Origin: Halorubrum salinum
GTDB taxonomy: Archaea; Halobacteriota; Halobacteria; Halobacteriales; Haloferacaceae
Direction: 5' to 3'
Assembly (NCBI RefSeq): GCF_024494575.1
Contig: NZ_JANHDO010000001.1
Coordinates: forward strand, 310,001 to 374,000
Length of the DNA: 64,000 bases
Shown: positions 14,309 through 51,244 of the stretch, one piece after another
Position numbering within the stretch: position 1 is the first letter of the stretch
Layout: every line of letters begins with the position of its first letter
Translations under genes and position numbers: made by a program
Notes under the pieces: generated by a model
Told to the model about the DNA's origin: nothing
The model's input: the letters and a program-made list of their open reading frames with translations, nothing else
The model's database searches: none

Positions 14309-14329
14309 GCTCTCCCGTGCCGTGAGAAC
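14309..14329. promoter_or_regulatory. Degenerate GTTCTCAC/GTGAGAAC element upstream of fumC
   Basis: GTGAGAAC (14322-14329) is an exact half-site. The left arm GCTCTCCC (14309-14316) matches GTTCTCAC at 6 of 8 positions with a 5-nt spacer. It lies about 19 nt upstream of the fumC TATA box. The exact half-site is shared with the elements at 44220-44237 and 51226-51244. The looser left arm makes function here uncertain. Confidence 0.4.
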
Positions 14330-14348
14330 GGTGACCGGTTTCAGTAGC

Positions 14349-14353
14349 TTTTA
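14349..14353 (+). promoter_or_regulatory. TATA box of fumC
   Basis: GCTTTTACC with a TTTTA core about 28 nt upstream of the ATG at 14379, predicting a leaderless transcript. Confidence 0.5.
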
Positions 14354-14378
14354 CCCGGTCTCGCGGGAAGCCGCAGGC

Positions 14379-27037: not shown

Positions 27038-27094
27038 GGATCGGGCGGTCCGCGGACGGGACCCGTTATCACCGGAGAGAACCTGACGCGAACG

Positions 27095-27124: not shown

Positions 27125-27328
27125 ATGAGCGAGGCGCAGACGCTCGCGATCATCGCGGGCGGCGTCGGGGGTGCCGTCGGTGCGTTCGTGGGCGTCGCCG
27201 TCGGCGGAAGCGCGCTCTCGGTGGCGGTGACGACCAGCGTCGTCGCGCTCCTGATCGGCGTGGGAGTGATAGCGAGCGCGGTGATCGCCGGCGACGTGGA
27301 GTTTCTCGCGGACGCGGACGGGGAGTAA
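27125..27328 (+). CDS. Small two-helix membrane protein, unknown function
   Basis: A 67-residue hydrophobic protein with two predicted helices separated by a Ser/Thr turn: IIAGGVGGAVGAFVGVAVGG (about residues 9-28) and VVALLIGVGVIASAVIAG (about 38-55), followed by an acidic tail. Glycine zipper-like G-x3-G spacing in helix 1 suggests oligomerisation or tight packing. A strong TATA box 27 nt upstream supports expression. It is convergent with the DUF7126 gene. I do not recognise a characterised homologue. Confidence 0.7.
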   Translation: MSEAQTLAIIAGGVGGAVGAFVGVAVGGSALSVAVTTSVVALLIGVGVIASAVIAGDVEFLADADGE

Positions 27329-39276: not shown

Positions 39277-40079
39277 CAGACCCTCTCGAACACCCGCCGT
39301 CGCTTGTCGATCGGTTCGTACCGGTCCGACCGGTCCGGCGGGACGCTCTCGGTCATTCCGAGAACGAGGACGCCGTCGTCCGCGAGCGACGCTTCGAGCG
39401 TGTCGAACAGCGCGCCCTTGTGGTCGACGTCGATGTAGATCAGCAGGTTGCGACACAACACCACGTCGAACGGGTCGCGCGCCCCGTCGCGGATCAGGTC
39501 GTGCGTCTCGAAGTCGACGAGTCGGCGGACGGCGGGCTTGACCTGAAAGGCGTCCCCGTCCTGTTCGACGTACCGGTCGGGGTCAGAGAGCGGTTCGAGC
39601 TCCGCCGCGATGTCAGTCGTCCTCGTGGTGTGGTAGGTGCCGCCACGGGCGTTGTCGAGCGCCTCTTCGCTGATGTCGGAGCCGAGCACCTCGACGCGCG
39701 ACTCGTCGATCTCGCGGTCGTCACACGCCAGCATCGCGATCGAGTACGCCTCGCGTCCGTCCGCCGACGGGGCGGACCAGACCCGGACGCGCCGCTTCTC
39801 GTCCGTCTTCTCGCGGAGCACCTCGCGGAGCACGTCCCACATCTCGGGGTTCCGGAAGAACTCGGTCACGTTGATCGTGAGCGCGTCCATCAGCGCCTGT
39901 CTCTCCTCGTCGTCGTCGCGGAGCAGCCTCTCGTACTCCGCGTGCGACTCGGTGTCGCGGCGGCGCATCCGCGCCGTGATCCGCCGGTCGAGGTACGACT
40001 CGTTGTAGTAGCCGGGCTCGAACGGCACCGTGTCGTCGATCTGCCGCAACACGCCCTCGAAGGGGGTTTCACTGCTCAT
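39276..40079 (-). CDS. cheR: Chemotaxis methyltransferase CheR
   Basis: A 267-residue glutamate O-methyltransferase that methylates transducer proteins with SAM. The N-terminal helical domain (about residues 1-70) contains FEPGYYNESYLDRRITARMRRRDTESHAEY. The catalytic domain has FFRNPEMWDVLREVLRE, the SAM-binding VWSAPSADGREAYSIAMLA (about 100-118), VLGSDISEEALDNARGGTYH, VLCRNLLIYID (about 208-218) and ADDGVLVLGMTES. The SAM loop reads WSAPSADGREAYS where bacterial enzymes have a Cys-Ser-Thr-Gly-Glu-Glu-Pro form. It overlaps cheA upstream (ATGA) and the HEAT gene downstream. Confidence 0.93.
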   Translation of the reverse strand: MSSETPFEGVLRQIDDTVPFEPGYYNESYLDRRITARMRRRDTESHAEYERLLRDDDEERQALMDALTINVTEFFRNPEMWDVLREVLREKTDEKRRVRVWSAPSADGREAYSIAMLACDDREIDESRVEVLGSDISEEALDNARGGTYHTTRTTDIAAELEPLSDPDRYVEQDGDAFQVKPAVRRLVDFETHDLIRDGARDPFDVVLCRNLLIYIDVDHKGALFDTLEASLADDGVLVLGMTESVPPDRSDRYEPIDKRRRVFERV

Positions 40080-42364
40080 AGGCTCACCACGTCGAGGACG
40101 GCAACGACGTCGCCGTCGCCGAGGACCGCCGTGCCGCTGAGCCCCGGCGTCCCCGACAGCGGCCCGTCGAGCGGTTTCACGACGACCTCCTCCTGGTCCA
40201 ACACGGCGTCGCAGTGGAGCGCCACCTGTCGCGTCTCCTCGCGGATCCGCACGAGCATCCCAACGTCGTCCGCGGACTCCGAAGCGTCGAGCGCGTCCGC
40301 GCCCTCGACGGTCCCGCCGTCCGGCGTCGCGGTCTCGTCGGGCCCGCTCGCGGCCGATCCGCCCGGAGCCGATCCGCCCACGCCGGAGCCGGCCGCGGCG
40401 GCCCCGCTCTCTTCGAGCCGGTCGTTCAGTCGGATCACGGGGTAGAGGTCGTCCTCGTGGCGCACGATCTCGTCGCCGTGGACCTCCTCCACGTCGTCCG
40501 CGCGGGCGACCTCCGCGATCGACTTTATCGGGATCCCGTACTCGGTGCCGCCGACGTCGACGAACATCACCTTCACGATGGCGACGGTCACCGGGAGCCG
40601 GAAGCGGACGGTCGTCCCCTCGCCGGGCTCGCTCTCGACGGCGACCGAGCCGTCGAGGTCGCGCGCGGTCGTCCGCACGACGTCCATGCCGACGCCGCGG
40701 CCGGAGACGTCGGTGACCTCCTCCGCGGTGGAGAAGCCGGGGTGGAACACGAGGTCGTACACCTCGTCGTCGTCCATCGCCTCGACCGCCTCGGGGCTCT
40801 TTACGCCCTCGGCGACCGCCTTCTCGCGGAGCTGGTCGGGATCGAGCCCGCCGCCGTCGTCTGCGACCTCGATGATGACGTGGTCGCGCTCGCGCTCGGC
40901 CGTGAGCCGGACGGTGCCCGTCGGGTCCTTCCCGGCGGCCTCGCGCTCGTCCGGCGACTCGATCCCGTGGTCGACGGCGTTCCGGAGGACGTGGACGAGC
41001 GGGTCGCGCATCTCCGTGAGGATCGTCCGGTCGAGTTCGACGTCGTCGCCCTCGATCTCGAAGTCGATCCGCTTGTCGAGGTCCCGAGAGATGTCGCGGA
41101 CGAGCCGCGGGAACGAGTCCGACACCTGCGAGAAGGGGATGAGCCGCATGTCCATCGCCGTGTCCTGCAGGCTGGAGGCGAGCTTGTCGAGTTCGTCTAA
41201 GGCGTCCGACTGCGCGTTCATCCCCTCCAGCTCTCGCCGGAGCTTGATGCGACTCGTCACCAGCTGCTCGACGAGCCCGTACAGCTCGTCGACCTGATCG
41301 ACGTCGACGCGGATAGACTTGATCTCGTCGCCCGACTTGGAGTCGGAGCCGGAGTCGTCTCCGCCGCCTTTCGTGTCCCCGGTGTTCCCCGTGTCGTCCG
41401 CATTGTCCCCGTCGTCCGTTCCTTCCGCGTCGTCGAGGGCGGTGACGGTGTCCGTGCGCTCGTCGTCTGCCGCCCCGCCGTCGGCGGGTTCGGCATCGTC
41501 GCCGTCGGCGTCAGCGGCCGCTTCGGACGGGGTCTCGGCCGCTGCGTCGCTCCCGCTCCCGTCGCCCTCTTCGCCGGCTCCGACGAGAGCAGTCGTCACC
41601 GACTCCACCTGCGTGAGCGCGTCGAGTCCCTCCGCGACCACGTCGGCCGCCGCGCCGCCGACGAACGCGTCGAACCCCTCGTCGTACTCGCCGTCCTCAA
41701 GCGCGGCCGGGTCGGGGTCGGTGACGAAGCCGTCGAACTGCCCGTCGAGCGCCTGCACGACGAGCGTGGCGTCGACGCCCGCCATCGCGCTCTCGCCTAT
41801 CGTCACGTCCGCGTACACGACGGGCTCTGGAAGGTCCGCCACGCCCGACGGGAGGTCGGGGACGGCGACGTCGCCGGACTCGCTCGTCTCGGCGGTCGAG
41901 TCGCTCTCGTCCGCTTCGCCGGACGCGTCGTCACCGGCGTCAGCGTCTCCAGCATCGGCGTCTCCATCGGCATCCTCGCCTCCGACGGTTCCGTGCTCTT
42001 CCATCTCGCGGAGGCGCGCTTCGAGGTCCGACGGGTCCGTCGTCACCTCGCCGGTGTCGGCGATCTCGGCGACCATCGCCTCGACGGCGTCGACGCCCTC
42101 GAAGAGGAGGTCCATGACCTCGGGCGTCACCTCGCGGTCGCCCTGTCTGATCGCGTCGAGCAGGTCCTCCAGCGCGTGGCCGAACGACGAGACGTCCTCG
42201 TACCCCATCGCCGCCGCGTTCCCCTTCAGGGTGTGTGCGACGCGGAACACGTCGTCCATCGCCGCGGCGTCCTCGGGGTCGGACTCGAGCGCGAGCAGCG
42301 CGTTGTTGAGGTCCGTGACCCCGTCTTCCGCCTCGGCGACGAACGCGGCGCGGTGTGAGTCCAT
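40076..42364 (-). CDS. cheA: Chemotaxis histidine kinase CheA
   Basis: A 762-residue CheA kinase, the core of the taxis signalling array with CheW and the transducers. P1 has the phosphorylated His44 in RVAHTLKGNAAAMGYEDV. An acidic linker follows, then a P2-like domain (about residues 185-285), then a second, longer Asp/Gly/Ser-rich linker (about 285-370). P3 dimerisation runs from IRVDVDQVDELYGLVEQLVTSRIKL. P4 ATPase has HVLRNAVDHGIESPDERE, DDGGGLDPDQLREKAV and SGRGVGMDVV. The CheW-like P5 closes at VVAVLDVVSL. Joined to cheB by TGATG and to cheR by ATGA. Confidence 0.95.
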   Translation of the reverse strand: MDSHRAAFVAEAEDGVTDLNNALLALESDPEDAAAMDDVFRVAHTLKGNAAAMGYEDVSSFGHALEDLLDAIRQGDREVTPEVMDLLFEGVDAVEAMVAEIADTGEVTTDPSDLEARLREMEEHGTVGGEDADGDADAGDADAGDDASGEADESDSTAETSESGDVAVPDLPSGVADLPEPVVYADVTIGESAMAGVDATLVVQALDGQFDGFVTDPDPAALEDGEYDEGFDAFVGGAAADVVAEGLDALTQVESVTTALVGAGEEGDGSGSDAAAETPSEAAADADGDDAEPADGGAADDERTDTVTALDDAEGTDDGDNADDTGNTGDTKGGGDDSGSDSKSGDEIKSIRVDVDQVDELYGLVEQLVTSRIKLRRELEGMNAQSDALDELDKLASSLQDTAMDMRLIPFSQVSDSFPRLVRDISRDLDKRIDFEIEGDDVELDRTILTEMRDPLVHVLRNAVDHGIESPDEREAAGKDPTGTVRLTAERERDHVIIEVADDGGGLDPDQLREKAVAEGVKSPEAVEAMDDDEVYDLVFHPGFSTAEEVTDVSGRGVGMDVVRTTARDLDGSVAVESEPGEGTTVRFRLPVTVAIVKVMFVDVGGTEYGIPIKSIAEVARADDVEEVHGDEIVRHEDDLYPVIRLNDRLEESGAAAAGSGVGGSAPGGSAASGPDETATPDGGTVEGADALDASESADDVGMLVRIREETRQVALHCDAVLDQEEVVVKPLDGPLSGTPGLSGTAVLGDGDVVAVLDVVSL

Positions 42365-43506
42365 CAGGCCTCACCCCCCACGATCGCGCCGGCGACGTCG
42401 TCGAGGTCGTGCACCTCGTCCACGCCGCCGGACTCCACCGCGCGCTTCGGCATCCCGTAGATGACGCAGGTGTCCTCGCTCTGGGCTATCGTCCGCGCGC
42501 CGGCGTCGGCCATCGCGCGGATCCCCTCGGCGGCGTCCGAGCCCATCCCGGTCAACACGACGCCGACGAGCGGGTCGTCGACGACCTCGGCCGCAGAGCG
42601 CATCGTCACGTCTGCGGCCGGCGACACCGACTGTGAGTCGTCCTCGTCGAGTTTGACCCGGAGCCGACCCGCGCGGTAGCTGTCGATTCGGGTGTGGCTC
42701 CCGCCGCGGGCGACGAGCGCCTCGCCGGCACCGATCCGCGCCCCGTCGCTCGCCTCCCGCACGTCGTACGCCGAGGCGGCGTCCAGGCGGTCGGCGAACC
42801 GCGGCGTGAACGCCTCCGGCATGTGCTGGACGATGACGATCCGACAGTCCGCCATCGGCAGCGCCGACATGACGCGCTCGACCGCGTTCGGCCCGCCGGT
42901 CGACGCCCCGATCACGACCGTCAGCGGTTCGTCGAGGCCCGCCGCTGGTGCGGTCGTCGCCGCGCTCGCCGACGCGGACGCGCCCGTCGACGCGGACGCG
43001 CCCGCCGACGCCGACCCGCCGGACCCGGCAGACGCGCTCGCCGAGCCGCCTCGGTCCCACGTCGCCGCCGCGAGGTCCGCGTCCGCGACCGACCTGACGG
43101 CCTCGACGAGCCGATCTGACTCCCGAGAGACCCCGGTCGAGACCTCGCCGCCGGGCTTCGAGAAGAAGTCGACCGCGCCGCGTTCGAGCGCCTCGAAGGT
43201 CACCTCTGCGCCCTCGTCCGTGTGTGCAGACAGCATCAGAACGGGCGTCGGGGTCTCCTCCATCAGCCGTTCGACGGCCTCTAACCCCCCCATTCCGGGC
43301 ATCTCCACGTCCATCGTCACCACGTCGGGAGCCGTCTCGGCGACCACCGACAGCGCCTCCGCGCCGTCGCCCGCCTCGCCGACGACCGCGACACCGGCGT
43401 CTGTCAAGAGATCGGCGATCAACCCGCGCATGAACGGCGAGTCGTCGACGACCACCACCCGCGGTGACCCGTCGCGGCTCCCCCGCCGATCCGTCGTCCT
43501 GCTCAT
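42364..43506 (-). CDS. cheB: Chemotaxis methylesterase CheB
   Basis: A 380-residue protein-glutamate methylesterase/deamidase. The receiver domain has VVVVDDSPFMRGLI and phospho-acceptor Asp66 in TMDVEMPG. A low-complexity Ala/Ser/Gly linker (about residues 165-200) is unusually repetitive. The esterase domain has the catalytic serine in VIGASTGGPNAVERV, histidine in VQHMPEAFTPRFADRLD and aspartate in LTGMGSDAAEGIRAM. The ATG at 43506 fits a TTTATG box at 43532-43537, 28 nt upstream; the in-frame extension to 43533 is rejected. First gene of the taxis operon and divergent from cheW. Confidence 0.95.
   Translation of the reverse strand: MSRTTDRRGSRDGSPRVVVVDDSPFMRGLIADLLTDAGVAVVGEAGDGAEALSVVAETAPDVVTMDVEMPGMGGLEAVERLMEETPTPVLMLSAHTDEGAEVTFEALERGAVDFFSKPGGEVSTGVSRESDRLVEAVRSVADADLAAATWDRGGSASASAGSGGSASAGASASTGASASASAATTAPAAGLDEPLTVVIGASTGGPNAVERVMSALPMADCRIVIVQHMPEAFTPRFADRLDAASAYDVREASDGARIGAGEALVARGGSHTRIDSYRAGRLRVKLDEDDSQSVSPAADVTMRSAAEVVDDPLVGVVLTGMGSDAAEGIRAMADAGARTIAQSEDTCVIYGMPKRAVESGGVDEVHDLDDVAGAIVGGEA
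42966..43018 (-). repeat. 18-bp tandem repeat in cheB linker
   Basis: On the plus strand GACGCGGACGCGCCCGTC is followed by GACGCGGACGCGCCCGCC and then a decayed third copy. They encode the SASAGASAS part of the linker between the receiver and esterase domains. Confidence 0.6.
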
Positions 43507-43537: not shown

Positions 43538-43578
43538 GCACGCCCCCGCTAATCACTGCTGATAATTCAGGGGACACG

Positions 43579-43608: not shown

Positions 43609-44103
43609 ATGGCAGCCACGGAAGCAGACGCCGAACCGACGAAGGTACTGGAGTTCGGCTTGGGCGACGGGACGTACTGTCTGGACATCGGCGTGATAGA
43701 CGAGATCGTCGACGCCGGCGAGCTCACGCGCATCCCGAACTCGCCCGATCACGTCGAAGGCGTGATGGATCTCCGCGGGCGAACGACGACGATCGTCGAC
43801 CCGAAGACGCTGTTCGCCATCGAGGAGGACGGCCCCCGCGAGCGGATCGTCGTCTTCGACGACGACGAGATCGACGAGGGCGGGACCGTCGGCTGGATGG
43901 TCGACGAGGTGTTTCAAGTCCGCGACGTCGCGCCCGAAGACGTCGACCAAGGAACGACCGTCGAAGACGAGGGCGTCCGCGGGATCGTCAAGTCGGACGA
44001 CCGGTTCGTCGTCTGGGTCTCGCCGGACGTCGACGGCCTCGACATCGACGACGTCGCCGACTCCTCACCCGACGACGCGGGCGGCGAGTCGGTCGAGGCG
44101 TAA
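43609..44103 (+). CDS. cheW: Chemotaxis coupling protein CheW
   Basis: A 164-residue CheW adaptor joining CheA to transducers. The family order is VLEFGLGDGTYCLDIGVIDEIVDAGELTRIPNSPDHVEGVMDLRGRTTTIVDPKTLF, then RIVVFDDDEIDEGGTVGWMVDEVFQV and GIVKSDDRFVVWV. It is longer than many CheW proteins because of an acidic C-terminal tail (about residues 145-164). Divergent from cheB with only 102 nt between starts, so both promoters share one short control region. cheY, cheC and cheD are not in the window. Confidence 0.94.
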   Translation: MAATEADAEPTKVLEFGLGDGTYCLDIGVIDEIVDAGELTRIPNSPDHVEGVMDLRGRTTTIVDPKTLFAIEEDGPRERIVVFDDDEIDEGGTVGWMVDEVFQVRDVAPEDVDQGTTVEDEGVRGIVKSDDRFVVWVSPDVDGLDIDDVADSSPDDAGGESVEA

Positions 44104-44219: not shown

Positions 44220-44237
44220 GTTCTCACGGGTGAGAAC
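44220..44237. promoter_or_regulatory. Palindromic operator candidate GTTCTCAC-GG-GTGAGAAC
   Basis: Perfect 8-bp arms (44220-44227 and 44230-44237) around GG. It ends 13 nt upstream of the TATA box (44251) of the RecA-fold gene at 44281, the position of an activator site or upstream operator in haloarchaeal promoters. An almost identical element is at 51226-51244 upstream of the ba3 oxidase operon, and an exact half-site is at 14322-14329 upstream of fumC. Confidence 0.6.
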
Positions 44238-44250
44238 CGGGTGCCAATCC

Positions 44251-44255
44251 TTATG
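44251..44255 (+). promoter_or_regulatory. TATA box of RecA-fold gene
   Basis: CCTTATGCGG about 28 nt upstream of the ATG at 44281. Confidence 0.5.
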
Positions 44256-44280
44256 CGGTGACCGACGAGTCTGACACGAT

Positions 44281-44976
44281 ATGCGCGCACCAAGCGGCGT
44301 CCCCGGGTTCGACGACCTCGTCGACGGCGGGTTCCCGGAGAGCCGCCTCTACGTCGTGAGCGGTCCGCCGGGGAGCGGAAAGACCACGTTCTGCTCGCAG
44401 TTCGCGGCACAGGGCGCTCGCAACGGCGAGGACGTGTTGTATATCAGCATGCACGAGACCAAGGCGGGGATCCGCCGCGACATGGGCGAGTACGACTTCG
44501 GATTCGACCGCGCGCTCGACACCGATCGCGTCACGTTCCTCGATTCGTTCTCGTCGGACGGTCGTCGCTTCTTCGGGCTCCCGGGCGAGCGCCGGGACCA
44601 CTCCGGCGTCACGAACCGCCTCACCGGATTCATCAACTCGCGCGATATCGACCGCGTCGTCTTCGACTCCACGATGCTGTTGCGGTTCCTCCTCGACGAC
44701 GACGAGGACACCATGGTCCAGCTACTCTCCTCGCTGAAGCGGACCGACGCGACCACTCTCCTTATCTCCGAGATGACCGACCCGAGCGCCTACTCCGAGG
44801 AGCACTACCTCGCACACGGAGTCGTCTTCATGCACAACTACCTCGAAGACGAGGGGATGCGCCGCGGGATACAGGTGTTGAAGATGCGCGGTACCGACGT
44901 GAACACCGACATCCAGGACGTCGAGTTCACCGACGGGGGGCTTCGCGTCGGCGCGGCCGCGACGGTGACGCACTGA
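44281..44976 (+). CDS. KaiC/RAD55-like RecA-superfamily ATPase
   Basis: A 231-residue single-domain ATPase of the KaiC/GvpD/RAD55 group, which haloarchaeal annotation associates with signal transduction. SGVPGFDDLVDGGFPESRLYVVSGPPGSGKTTFCSQFA (split; residues 5-43) holds the Walker A GPPGSGKT. LYISMHETKAGIRRDMGEYDFGF follows. Walker B-like RVVFDSTMLLRFLL and TTLLISEMTDP, then HGVVFMHNYLEDEGMRRGIQVLKMRGTDVNTDIQDVEFTDGGLRV, form the core strands and the R-M-x-x-x-Q-V-x-K-x-R motif of the family. It starts a three-gene cluster just after cheW; the next gene overlaps it (TGATG). A conserved palindrome lies upstream of its TATA box. Confidence 0.86.
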   Translation: MRAPSGVPGFDDLVDGGFPESRLYVVSGPPGSGKTTFCSQFAAQGARNGEDVLYISMHETKAGIRRDMGEYDFGFDRALDTDRVTFLDSFSSDGRRFFGLPGERRDHSGVTNRLTGFINSRDIDRVVFDSTMLLRFLLDDDEDTMVQLLSSLKRTDATTLLISEMTDPSAYSEEHYLAHGVVFMHNYLEDEGMRRGIQVLKMRGTDVNTDIQDVEFTDGGLRVGAAATVTH

Positions 44977-45368
44977 TGTACGACCGTACGTTCGGAACCG
45001 AGTGGGACGACCTCGCACGCGAGGAGGCGGTCGAGCGCGCGTTCGCACTCGGTGTCGCGACCGAAATCGACCGCGAGCGCCCGACGGAGCTGGATCGCGT
45101 GCTCGACGCGTTCGAGAGCGCGTACGACCGGAGTCTCGTCGAACTCGCCTACGACGAGGGGCGGACGAAGGCGCTCGAGGCGGCGGCCGAATCCGCCGAC
45201 GCCGACCCGCAGACGGTGTGGGACGCCTTGGTCGACGGCGGCGGCACGCCACGAGTCGCTCCCGTCTCCGCCGCCTTGCCCGGCGCGCTGACCGAACTGT
45301 CGCTCACGAAGCGACCGCGGGAGGGACCGCCGTCCTCGCTCGCGTTCCCGTCAATGCTTCGGAAGTGA
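44976..45368 (+). CDS. Small acidic helical protein coupled to RecA-fold genes
   Basis: A 130-residue protein with no family I recognise. The first ~95 residues look all-helical: EWDDLAREEAVERAFALGVATEIDRE, ELDRVLDAFESAYDRSLVELAYDEGRTKALEAAAE, ADPQTVWDALVDGG. The C-terminus (about 96-130) is Pro/Ser-rich and basic at the end (SLTKRPREGPPSS, MLRK). Its start overlaps the stop of the KaiC-like ATPase gene (TGATG), which implies translational coupling and a shared function, perhaps as its binding partner. A second RecA-fold gene follows after 43 nt. Confidence 0.72.
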   Translation: MYDRTFGTEWDDLAREEAVERAFALGVATEIDRERPTELDRVLDAFESAYDRSLVELAYDEGRTKALEAAAESADADPQTVWDALVDGGGTPRVAPVSAALPGALTELSLTKRPREGPPSSLAFPSMLRK

Positions 45369-45381
45369 ATCCTCGGAAGGG

Positions 45382-45387
45382 TTTTAC
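45382..45387 (+). promoter_or_regulatory. TATA box of second RecA-fold gene
   Basis: GGTTTTACC with TTTTAC about 28 nt upstream of the ATG at 45412. It gives the third gene of the cluster its own leaderless promoter. Confidence 0.5.
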
Positions 45388-45411
45388 CCGCCCTCGCACC
45401 AACCTACACCA

Positions 45412-46020
45412 ATGAGCGTACTTCCAGACGCTGTCCGGAACGCCGACAGCGTCCTCCTCAGCGGTCCGCCGATGAGCGGGAAGTACGACCTCTTCACCCG
45501 CCTGCTCGCGGACTGGGTCGACGAACCGGTCGTGATCTCGACGGGTCGAACCGCGGAGAAGGTCCGCGCCGACTACGAGTCGATCACCGGTCGCGACGGC
45601 GACGACGTGATCGTCATCGACTGCGTCACCCACGAGCAGGGCGACAAGCGTCCGGACACCCCCTCGACGAAGTACGTCGCAAGCGCCGGGAACCTCACGG
45701 ACATCGGGATCAAGTTCACCGACATCGTCGAGTCCTCGGCCGGCAAGGAGCGCGCGGTCGGCGTCTACTCGCTCTCGCAGCTCCTGATGTACTGGGATCC
45801 GGAGCGCATCTATCAGTTCACCCGCGTGCTGACCTCACAGACCTCCGGAGAGGGCTGGCCCTTCGTCGGGGTGCTCAACTCGACGGCCCACGACGAGCAG
45901 GTCGTCCACACGCTCCACGAGCCGTTCGACGTCGTCCTCGAAACGCGCGTCGACGGCGACGACCGGGAGTTCCGCGTCCGCGGCCGCGTTGAACAGCCCT
46001 CCGGGTGGGCACCGTACTAA
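45412..46020 (+). CDS. RecA-fold protein with atypical P-loop (DUF7090-like)
   Basis: A 202-residue protein related to the KaiC/RAD55 fold. The P-loop reads LLSGPPMSGKYDLFTRLLADW (split; residues 15-35): G-x-x-M-S-G-K is kept, but the canonical Thr/Ser after the lysine is Tyr. That residue normally helps bind Mg, so ATP hydrolysis may be altered or lost. VVISTGRTAEKVRADYESITG, VIVIDCVTHEQGD and RAVGVYSLSQLLMYWDPERIYQFTRVLTSQTSGEGWPFVGVLNSTAHDEQVVHTL follow the RecA core order. The DUF7090 label is from memory. It is the third gene of the cluster behind cheW and has its own TATA box. Confidence 0.78.
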   Translation: MSVLPDAVRNADSVLLSGPPMSGKYDLFTRLLADWVDEPVVISTGRTAEKVRADYESITGRDGDDVIVIDCVTHEQGDKRPDTPSTKYVASAGNLTDIGIKFTDIVESSAGKERAVGVYSLSQLLMYWDPERIYQFTRVLTSQTSGEGWPFVGVLNSTAHDEQVVHTLHEPFDVVLETRVDGDDREFRVRGRVEQPSGWAPY

Positions 46021-51225: not shown

Positions 51226-51244
51226 GTTCCCACGACGTGAGAAC
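51226..51244. promoter_or_regulatory. Operator candidate GTTCCCAC-GAC-GTGAGAAC
   Basis: GTTCCCAC (51226-51233), GAC, GTGAGAAC (51237-51244): 7 of 8 arm positions pair. It lies 11 nt upstream of the oxidase operon TATA box and about 40 nt before the divergent small gene at 51284. It matches the palindrome at 44220-44237 except for one base and one extra spacer base. Confidence 0.6.

Follow-up and report, generated by a model that had tools for sequence, protein, structure and literature searches.

A conserved palindrome in the cirD and chemotaxis promoters of haloarchaea is a predicted CsmR-type operator

The closest described system is that of CsmR in Haloferax volcanii (HVO_1209), a 13 kDa winged-helix protein whose gene adjoins the archaellin genes (PMC13286277, PLoS Genet, June 2026). 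According to that report, the motif TATCA(N4)TGATA was present in 50 of 65 CsmR ChIP-seq peaks, and at the arl and che promoters it adjoined the BRE/TATA elements on their upstream side (PMC13286277). Deletion of csmR resulted in an increase in the cirD transcript in all growth phases, and archaellum transcripts also rose, yet swimming was abolished; cells deleted for cirD were non-motile and not archaellated (PMC13286277). A positive role of CsmR was argued from the position of the motif, whereas the deletion data showed raised transcripts (PMC13286277). EarA of Methanococcus and Pyrococcus is also a winged-helix regulator placed upstream of archaellum promoters, next to the BRE. In the CsmR report, the two proteins are said to share no sequence or structural similarity, and H. 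volcanii to be without EarA (PMC13286277). The KaiC-like Cir proteins of H. volcanii, which include the orthologue of the gene behind the palindrome described here, were studied with respect to light-dependent expression, and the available part of that study names no operator (PMC3941300). The regulator and its motif have been known since June 2026 in this one species, and a search of open-licence PMC papers gave no further publication dealing with CsmR or the palindrome motif.

We analyzed a 64,000-nucleotide stretch of Halorubrum DNA (the window), in which positions 44220 to 44237 form a perfect intergenic palindrome, GTTCTCAC-GG-GTGAGAAC (in full GTTCTCACGGGTGAGAAC; no strand is assigned to this or to the other dyads). 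The palindrome ends 13 nt before TTATGC (44251..44256, plus strand), as the original prediction had described, and the ATG at 44281 follows it by 43 nt. We consider TTATGC to be the TATA-like element of the downstream promoter, with the BRE region immediately upstream of it, based on its sequence and on equal spacing at other sites. That prediction knew of no described haloarchaeal regulator with a consensus of this kind, and is corrected by the CsmR motif of H. volcanii. When up to three mismatches to the full palindrome were allowed, the window contained 2 sites against 0.24 expected. Genome-wide there were 15 sites, and the same pattern read backwards as a control gave none; the full palindrome exceeds chance. 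The half-site GTGAGAAC was present in both arms of the palindrome, at 14322-14329 upstream of fumC and at 51237-51244 upstream of the ba3 oxidase genes, and at no other place in the window, exactly where it had been predicted. Recurrence of this 8-mer by itself was, however, not significant (4 occurrences against 1.57 expected, with at least 4 in 7 of 100 shuffles), and the full palindrome is absent from the fumC and ba3 promoters. Two true recurrences of the element within the window, overlooked in the original prediction, lie at 27065-27082 and 43549-43566.

The gene behind the palindrome (44281..44976, plus strand) encodes a KaiC-like RecA-fold ATPase of 231 aa (PF06745, 1e-41), whose nearest relatives are from Halorubrum. 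Primers for quantitative PCR of H. volcanii cirD have been published (PMC3941300), and in the Haloferax orthologues 16-17 of 18 bases of one primer and 18 of 19 of the other were matched. The neighbours of cirD in Haloferax prahovense are oxidoreductase-like and hypothetical genes, in agreement with the published description of an oxidoreductase and a hypothetical protein. Because both the primer match and the neighbours in Haloferax fit, we assign the gene at 44281 as the cirD orthologue. Downstream of cirD (44976-46020) are genes for a 130-aa protein and a DUF7504 protein, neither with an assigned function, which may form one transcription unit with it.

Across many haloarchaeal genera the cirD promoter carries the consensus GTTNTCA-N4-TGANAAC at the same place. 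From the end of the element to the ATG there are 41-43 nt in Halorubrum, Halohasta, Natronocalculus, Haloarcula, Halomicroarcula, Halovenus, Halorientalis and Halosimplex; Halobellus, Halobaculum and Haloferax have it in a weaker form. Among 36 cirD loci outside a mostly Halorubrum set, 25 had a site 41-43 nt before the ATG whose score exceeded the 95% level obtained with shuffled promoters, and 15 of the 36 were within one mismatch of the consensus, compared with 0.04% of shuffles. The weight matrix was built from 33 cirD sites, so that the matrix-score test at cirD is partly circular, while the mismatch test and those at cheY, cheW and the 67-aa gene discussed below are not. Natrialba, Halobiforma and Halobacterium lack the site upstream of cirD, although csmR is present in these genera, and the link to cirD is therefore not universal.

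We then ran the cirD matrix over the window and three stretches of the same genome. Sites lie upstream of cheY (27.0), cirD (26.1), arlD (25.5; identified by the Arch_fla_DE family) and a gene for a 67-aa protein (20.5), followed by cheW (17.2), arlCE (17.1), a DUF7521-like gene (15.2) and, weakly, archaellin (12.7). The operator at 43549..43566, CTAATCACTGCTGATAAT, is common to the divergent cheW and cheB promoters and is flanked on either side by a TATA element at 13 nt. From it, cheW (43609..44103, plus strand; PF01584, 1.6e-25) starts after 42 nt, and cheB (42364..43506, minus strand), whose start at ATG 43506 is predicted from its translation and promoter sequence, begins 42 nt away on the other side and is followed by cheA (40076-42364). 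A third operator, GTTATCACCGGAGAGAAC (27065..27082), precedes the gene of the 67-aa small hydrophobic protein (27125..27328, plus strand), a probable target that had no match in Pfam or NCBIfam. The TATA element lies 13 nt from the site at cirD, cheY, cheW, cheB and the 67-aa gene.

Conservation upstream of orthologues, a check proposed with the original prediction, was found not only at cirD (25 of 36) but also at cheY, where 30 of 30 promoters of a family-wide footprint had the site, always at 42 nt, at the 67-aa gene (26 of 26 Halorubrum promoters, again at 42 nt) and at cheW/cheB (kept in 18 of 20 related loci). The fumC promoter, taken as the control, gave 1 of 25. This conservation strongly supports the part of the prediction that proposed a dimeric regulator with a small regulon. 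A degenerate pattern with up to two mismatches matched 44 sites genome-wide, against 12 in the reversed control; for 10 of these 44, a simple gene finder placed a gene start 41-46 nt downstream. In another genus, GTTCTCACTAGTGATAAC occurs with the same spacing before a gene that, judged by eye from its translation, encodes a putative methyl-accepting transducer. The element is a motility/chemotaxis operator.

The csmR orthologue in this genome encodes 112 aa with an HTH_20 winged helix (C1:135277-135615). It stands beside two archaellin genes (within about 1 to 2 kb) and a KaiC-like gene, and its position beside archaellin genes is common to H. volcanii and this genome. Each of 20 genomes of named haloarchaea gave a best csmR match, those of four Haloferax being 61% identical. 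In Haloferax, and in most of the genomes examined, archaellin genes adjoin csmR. Its predicted recognition helix, IPIAT(C/S)YRRI, hardly varies among the orthologues. Weaker csmR paralogues occur in the same genomes. Archaellin promoters of Haloferax carry GATATCAGTCTTGATATT or similar, and Haloferax has the TATCA form at these promoters and the TCTCA form at cirD, so that both forms are found within one genus. The csmR gene itself has a CsmR-like site between its TATA element and start codon, which exceeded the 95% shuffle level in 18 of 30 genomes. Since a site in this position is expected to block transcription, negative autoregulation would follow, and the site is a probable autorepression site. 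Among the family genomes csmR was present in 54 of 60 and cheY (E 1e-40) in only 39 of 60, and in several genomes without cheY, csmR was still next to a convergent KaiC-like gene; CsmR may act beyond motility.

Comparison with the described CsmR operator showed that the core of the semi-palindrome, TCA-N4-TGA, is present at 44220-44237, while there is variation at the fourth base (A/C/T) and in the outer bases. The outer bases here favour GTTCTCA or GTTATCA (GTT..AAC) over the TATCA of H. volcanii, and the exact TATCA form does not occur at 44220, where TCTCA is found. The palindrome is often perfect here, whereas the H. volcanii motif is a semi-palindrome. As in the CsmR regulon of H. volcanii, the site lies just upstream of the BRE/TATA elements, and the targets in both organisms are archaellum and chemotaxis promoters (cheY, cheW/cheB, arlCE and arlD, with archaellin weak). 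KaiC-like cirA and cirD belong to the CsmR network of H. volcanii, and KaiC-like cirD is among the genes with a site here. The sites before the 67-aa and DUF7521-like genes, and cirD as a predicted direct target, differ from the published H. volcanii regulon.

Taking these comparisons together, we infer that CsmR binds in Halorubrum, and the palindrome is very probably the operator through which a CsmR dimer acts on cirD, a predicted direct target of the regulator. The variable outer bases (GTTCTCA versus TATCA) and the weaker csmR paralogues in the same genomes could instead mean that a genuine motility operator is read in Halorubrum by another winged-helix or Lrp-type dimer. We consider this unlikely, as the TCA-N4-TGA core, the place before the TATA element and the set of targets all match CsmR, csmR adjoins archaellins in most genomes checked with its recognition helix nearly unchanged, and Haloferax uses both the TATCA and TCTCA forms. 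A perfect inverted repeat could also fold, and the palindrome might be a chance or RNA-level feature such as a hairpin and not a protein site. However, it is located upstream of the TATA element and therefore probably outside the cirD transcript, orthologous promoters keep one set distance between it and TATA, and divergent promoters use one common site, making this explanation extremely improbable.

The original prediction had also joined cirD, the ba3 oxidase and fumC in one regulon linking respiration and the TCA cycle, on the basis of the 8-mer common to the three promoters, and had placed the half-site always just upstream of a TATA box. The distance of 13 nt at cirD agrees with the latter, but the half-site at fumC (14322..14329, plus strand) ends more than 20 nt before the fumC TATA. 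It is not conserved in Halorubrum (1 of 25 promoters above the 95% shuffle level), and the best matrix score at this promoter was 0.1; fumC was rejected as a regulon member and its half-site attributed to chance. Downstream of the fumC TATA (~14345-14375), near the likely transcript start, is a ACCCGGTCTCGCGGGAAG-like stretch that is partly symmetric and conserved in most Halorubrum. At ba3, a 19-bp dyad, GTTCCCACGACGTGAGAAC (51226..51244), is located between the divergent TATA boxes of the ba3 cluster genes, and its conservation in Halorubrum could be taken to favour the joint regulon. In most species, however, this dyad reads GTTCYCG-N5-TGAAAAC, with a spacer one base longer than that of the cirD operator, and it lies 7-8 nt from the TATA element of a 65-aa gene, in contrast to 13 nt at cirD; its matrix score was 1.3, against 26 for the cirD site. 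The ba3 promoter was also rejected and, because its conserved dyad differs, is assigned to another regulator, the dyad being on this evidence a separate element of a separate regulator. With neither promoter fitting the matrix and the 8-mer count not significant, a regulon of cirD, ba3 and fumC is very improbable, and fumC and ba3 are removed from the proposed regulon.

A CsmR dimer would bind the palindrome before cirD, and would find the same element before archaellum and chemotaxis units, at one fixed place upstream of the BRE/TATA elements. Because element and place are the same, one regulator could set the archaellum and chemotaxis units together. Bound just upstream of the BRE, the dimer could contact TFB; this position suggests help in TFB recruitment, whereas the raised expression seen on csmR deletion points the other way. 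At csmR itself, binding between TATA and the start codon would likely repress the gene. It is possible, though on balance doubtful, that a single CsmR operator has two place-dependent effects across haloarchaea, one upstream of the BRE at cirD and at the motility and chemotaxis promoters, and the other downstream of TATA at csmR, where it would give negative feedback. In this reading cirD would be a direct target whose KaiC-like protein closes the loop. If true, this could explain why archaellum transcripts increase when csmR is lost and the cells nevertheless cannot swim.

What is new here is the breadth of the element across genera, its variant consensus, the prediction of cirD and the 67-aa gene as direct targets, the single operator common to cheW and cheB, and the probable csmR autorepression site. 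With this conservation, the CsmR network can be tested throughout the haloarchaea by sequence alone, and DNA positions for mutation are supplied. Within the network cirD stands out as a likely direct target, and two function-unassigned genes become candidate motility genes.

Similar sites were observed at a few other genes. A candidate site upstream of a gene for the tubulin-like CetZ (C1:461859, score 17.0) has a TATA element 13 nt away and was found in 4 of 4 sampled Halorubrum (scores 10.9-17.0), with weak sites outside this genus; CetZ is a tentative target, since only 15 of 30 family promoters passed the shuffle level. Two 268-aa paralogues have sites at 42 nt, with no clear TATA at 13 nt. 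In one further genus, a HIT-like gene is preceded by near-perfect palindromes with the TATA element ~40 nt off, unlike the arrangement at motility promoters.
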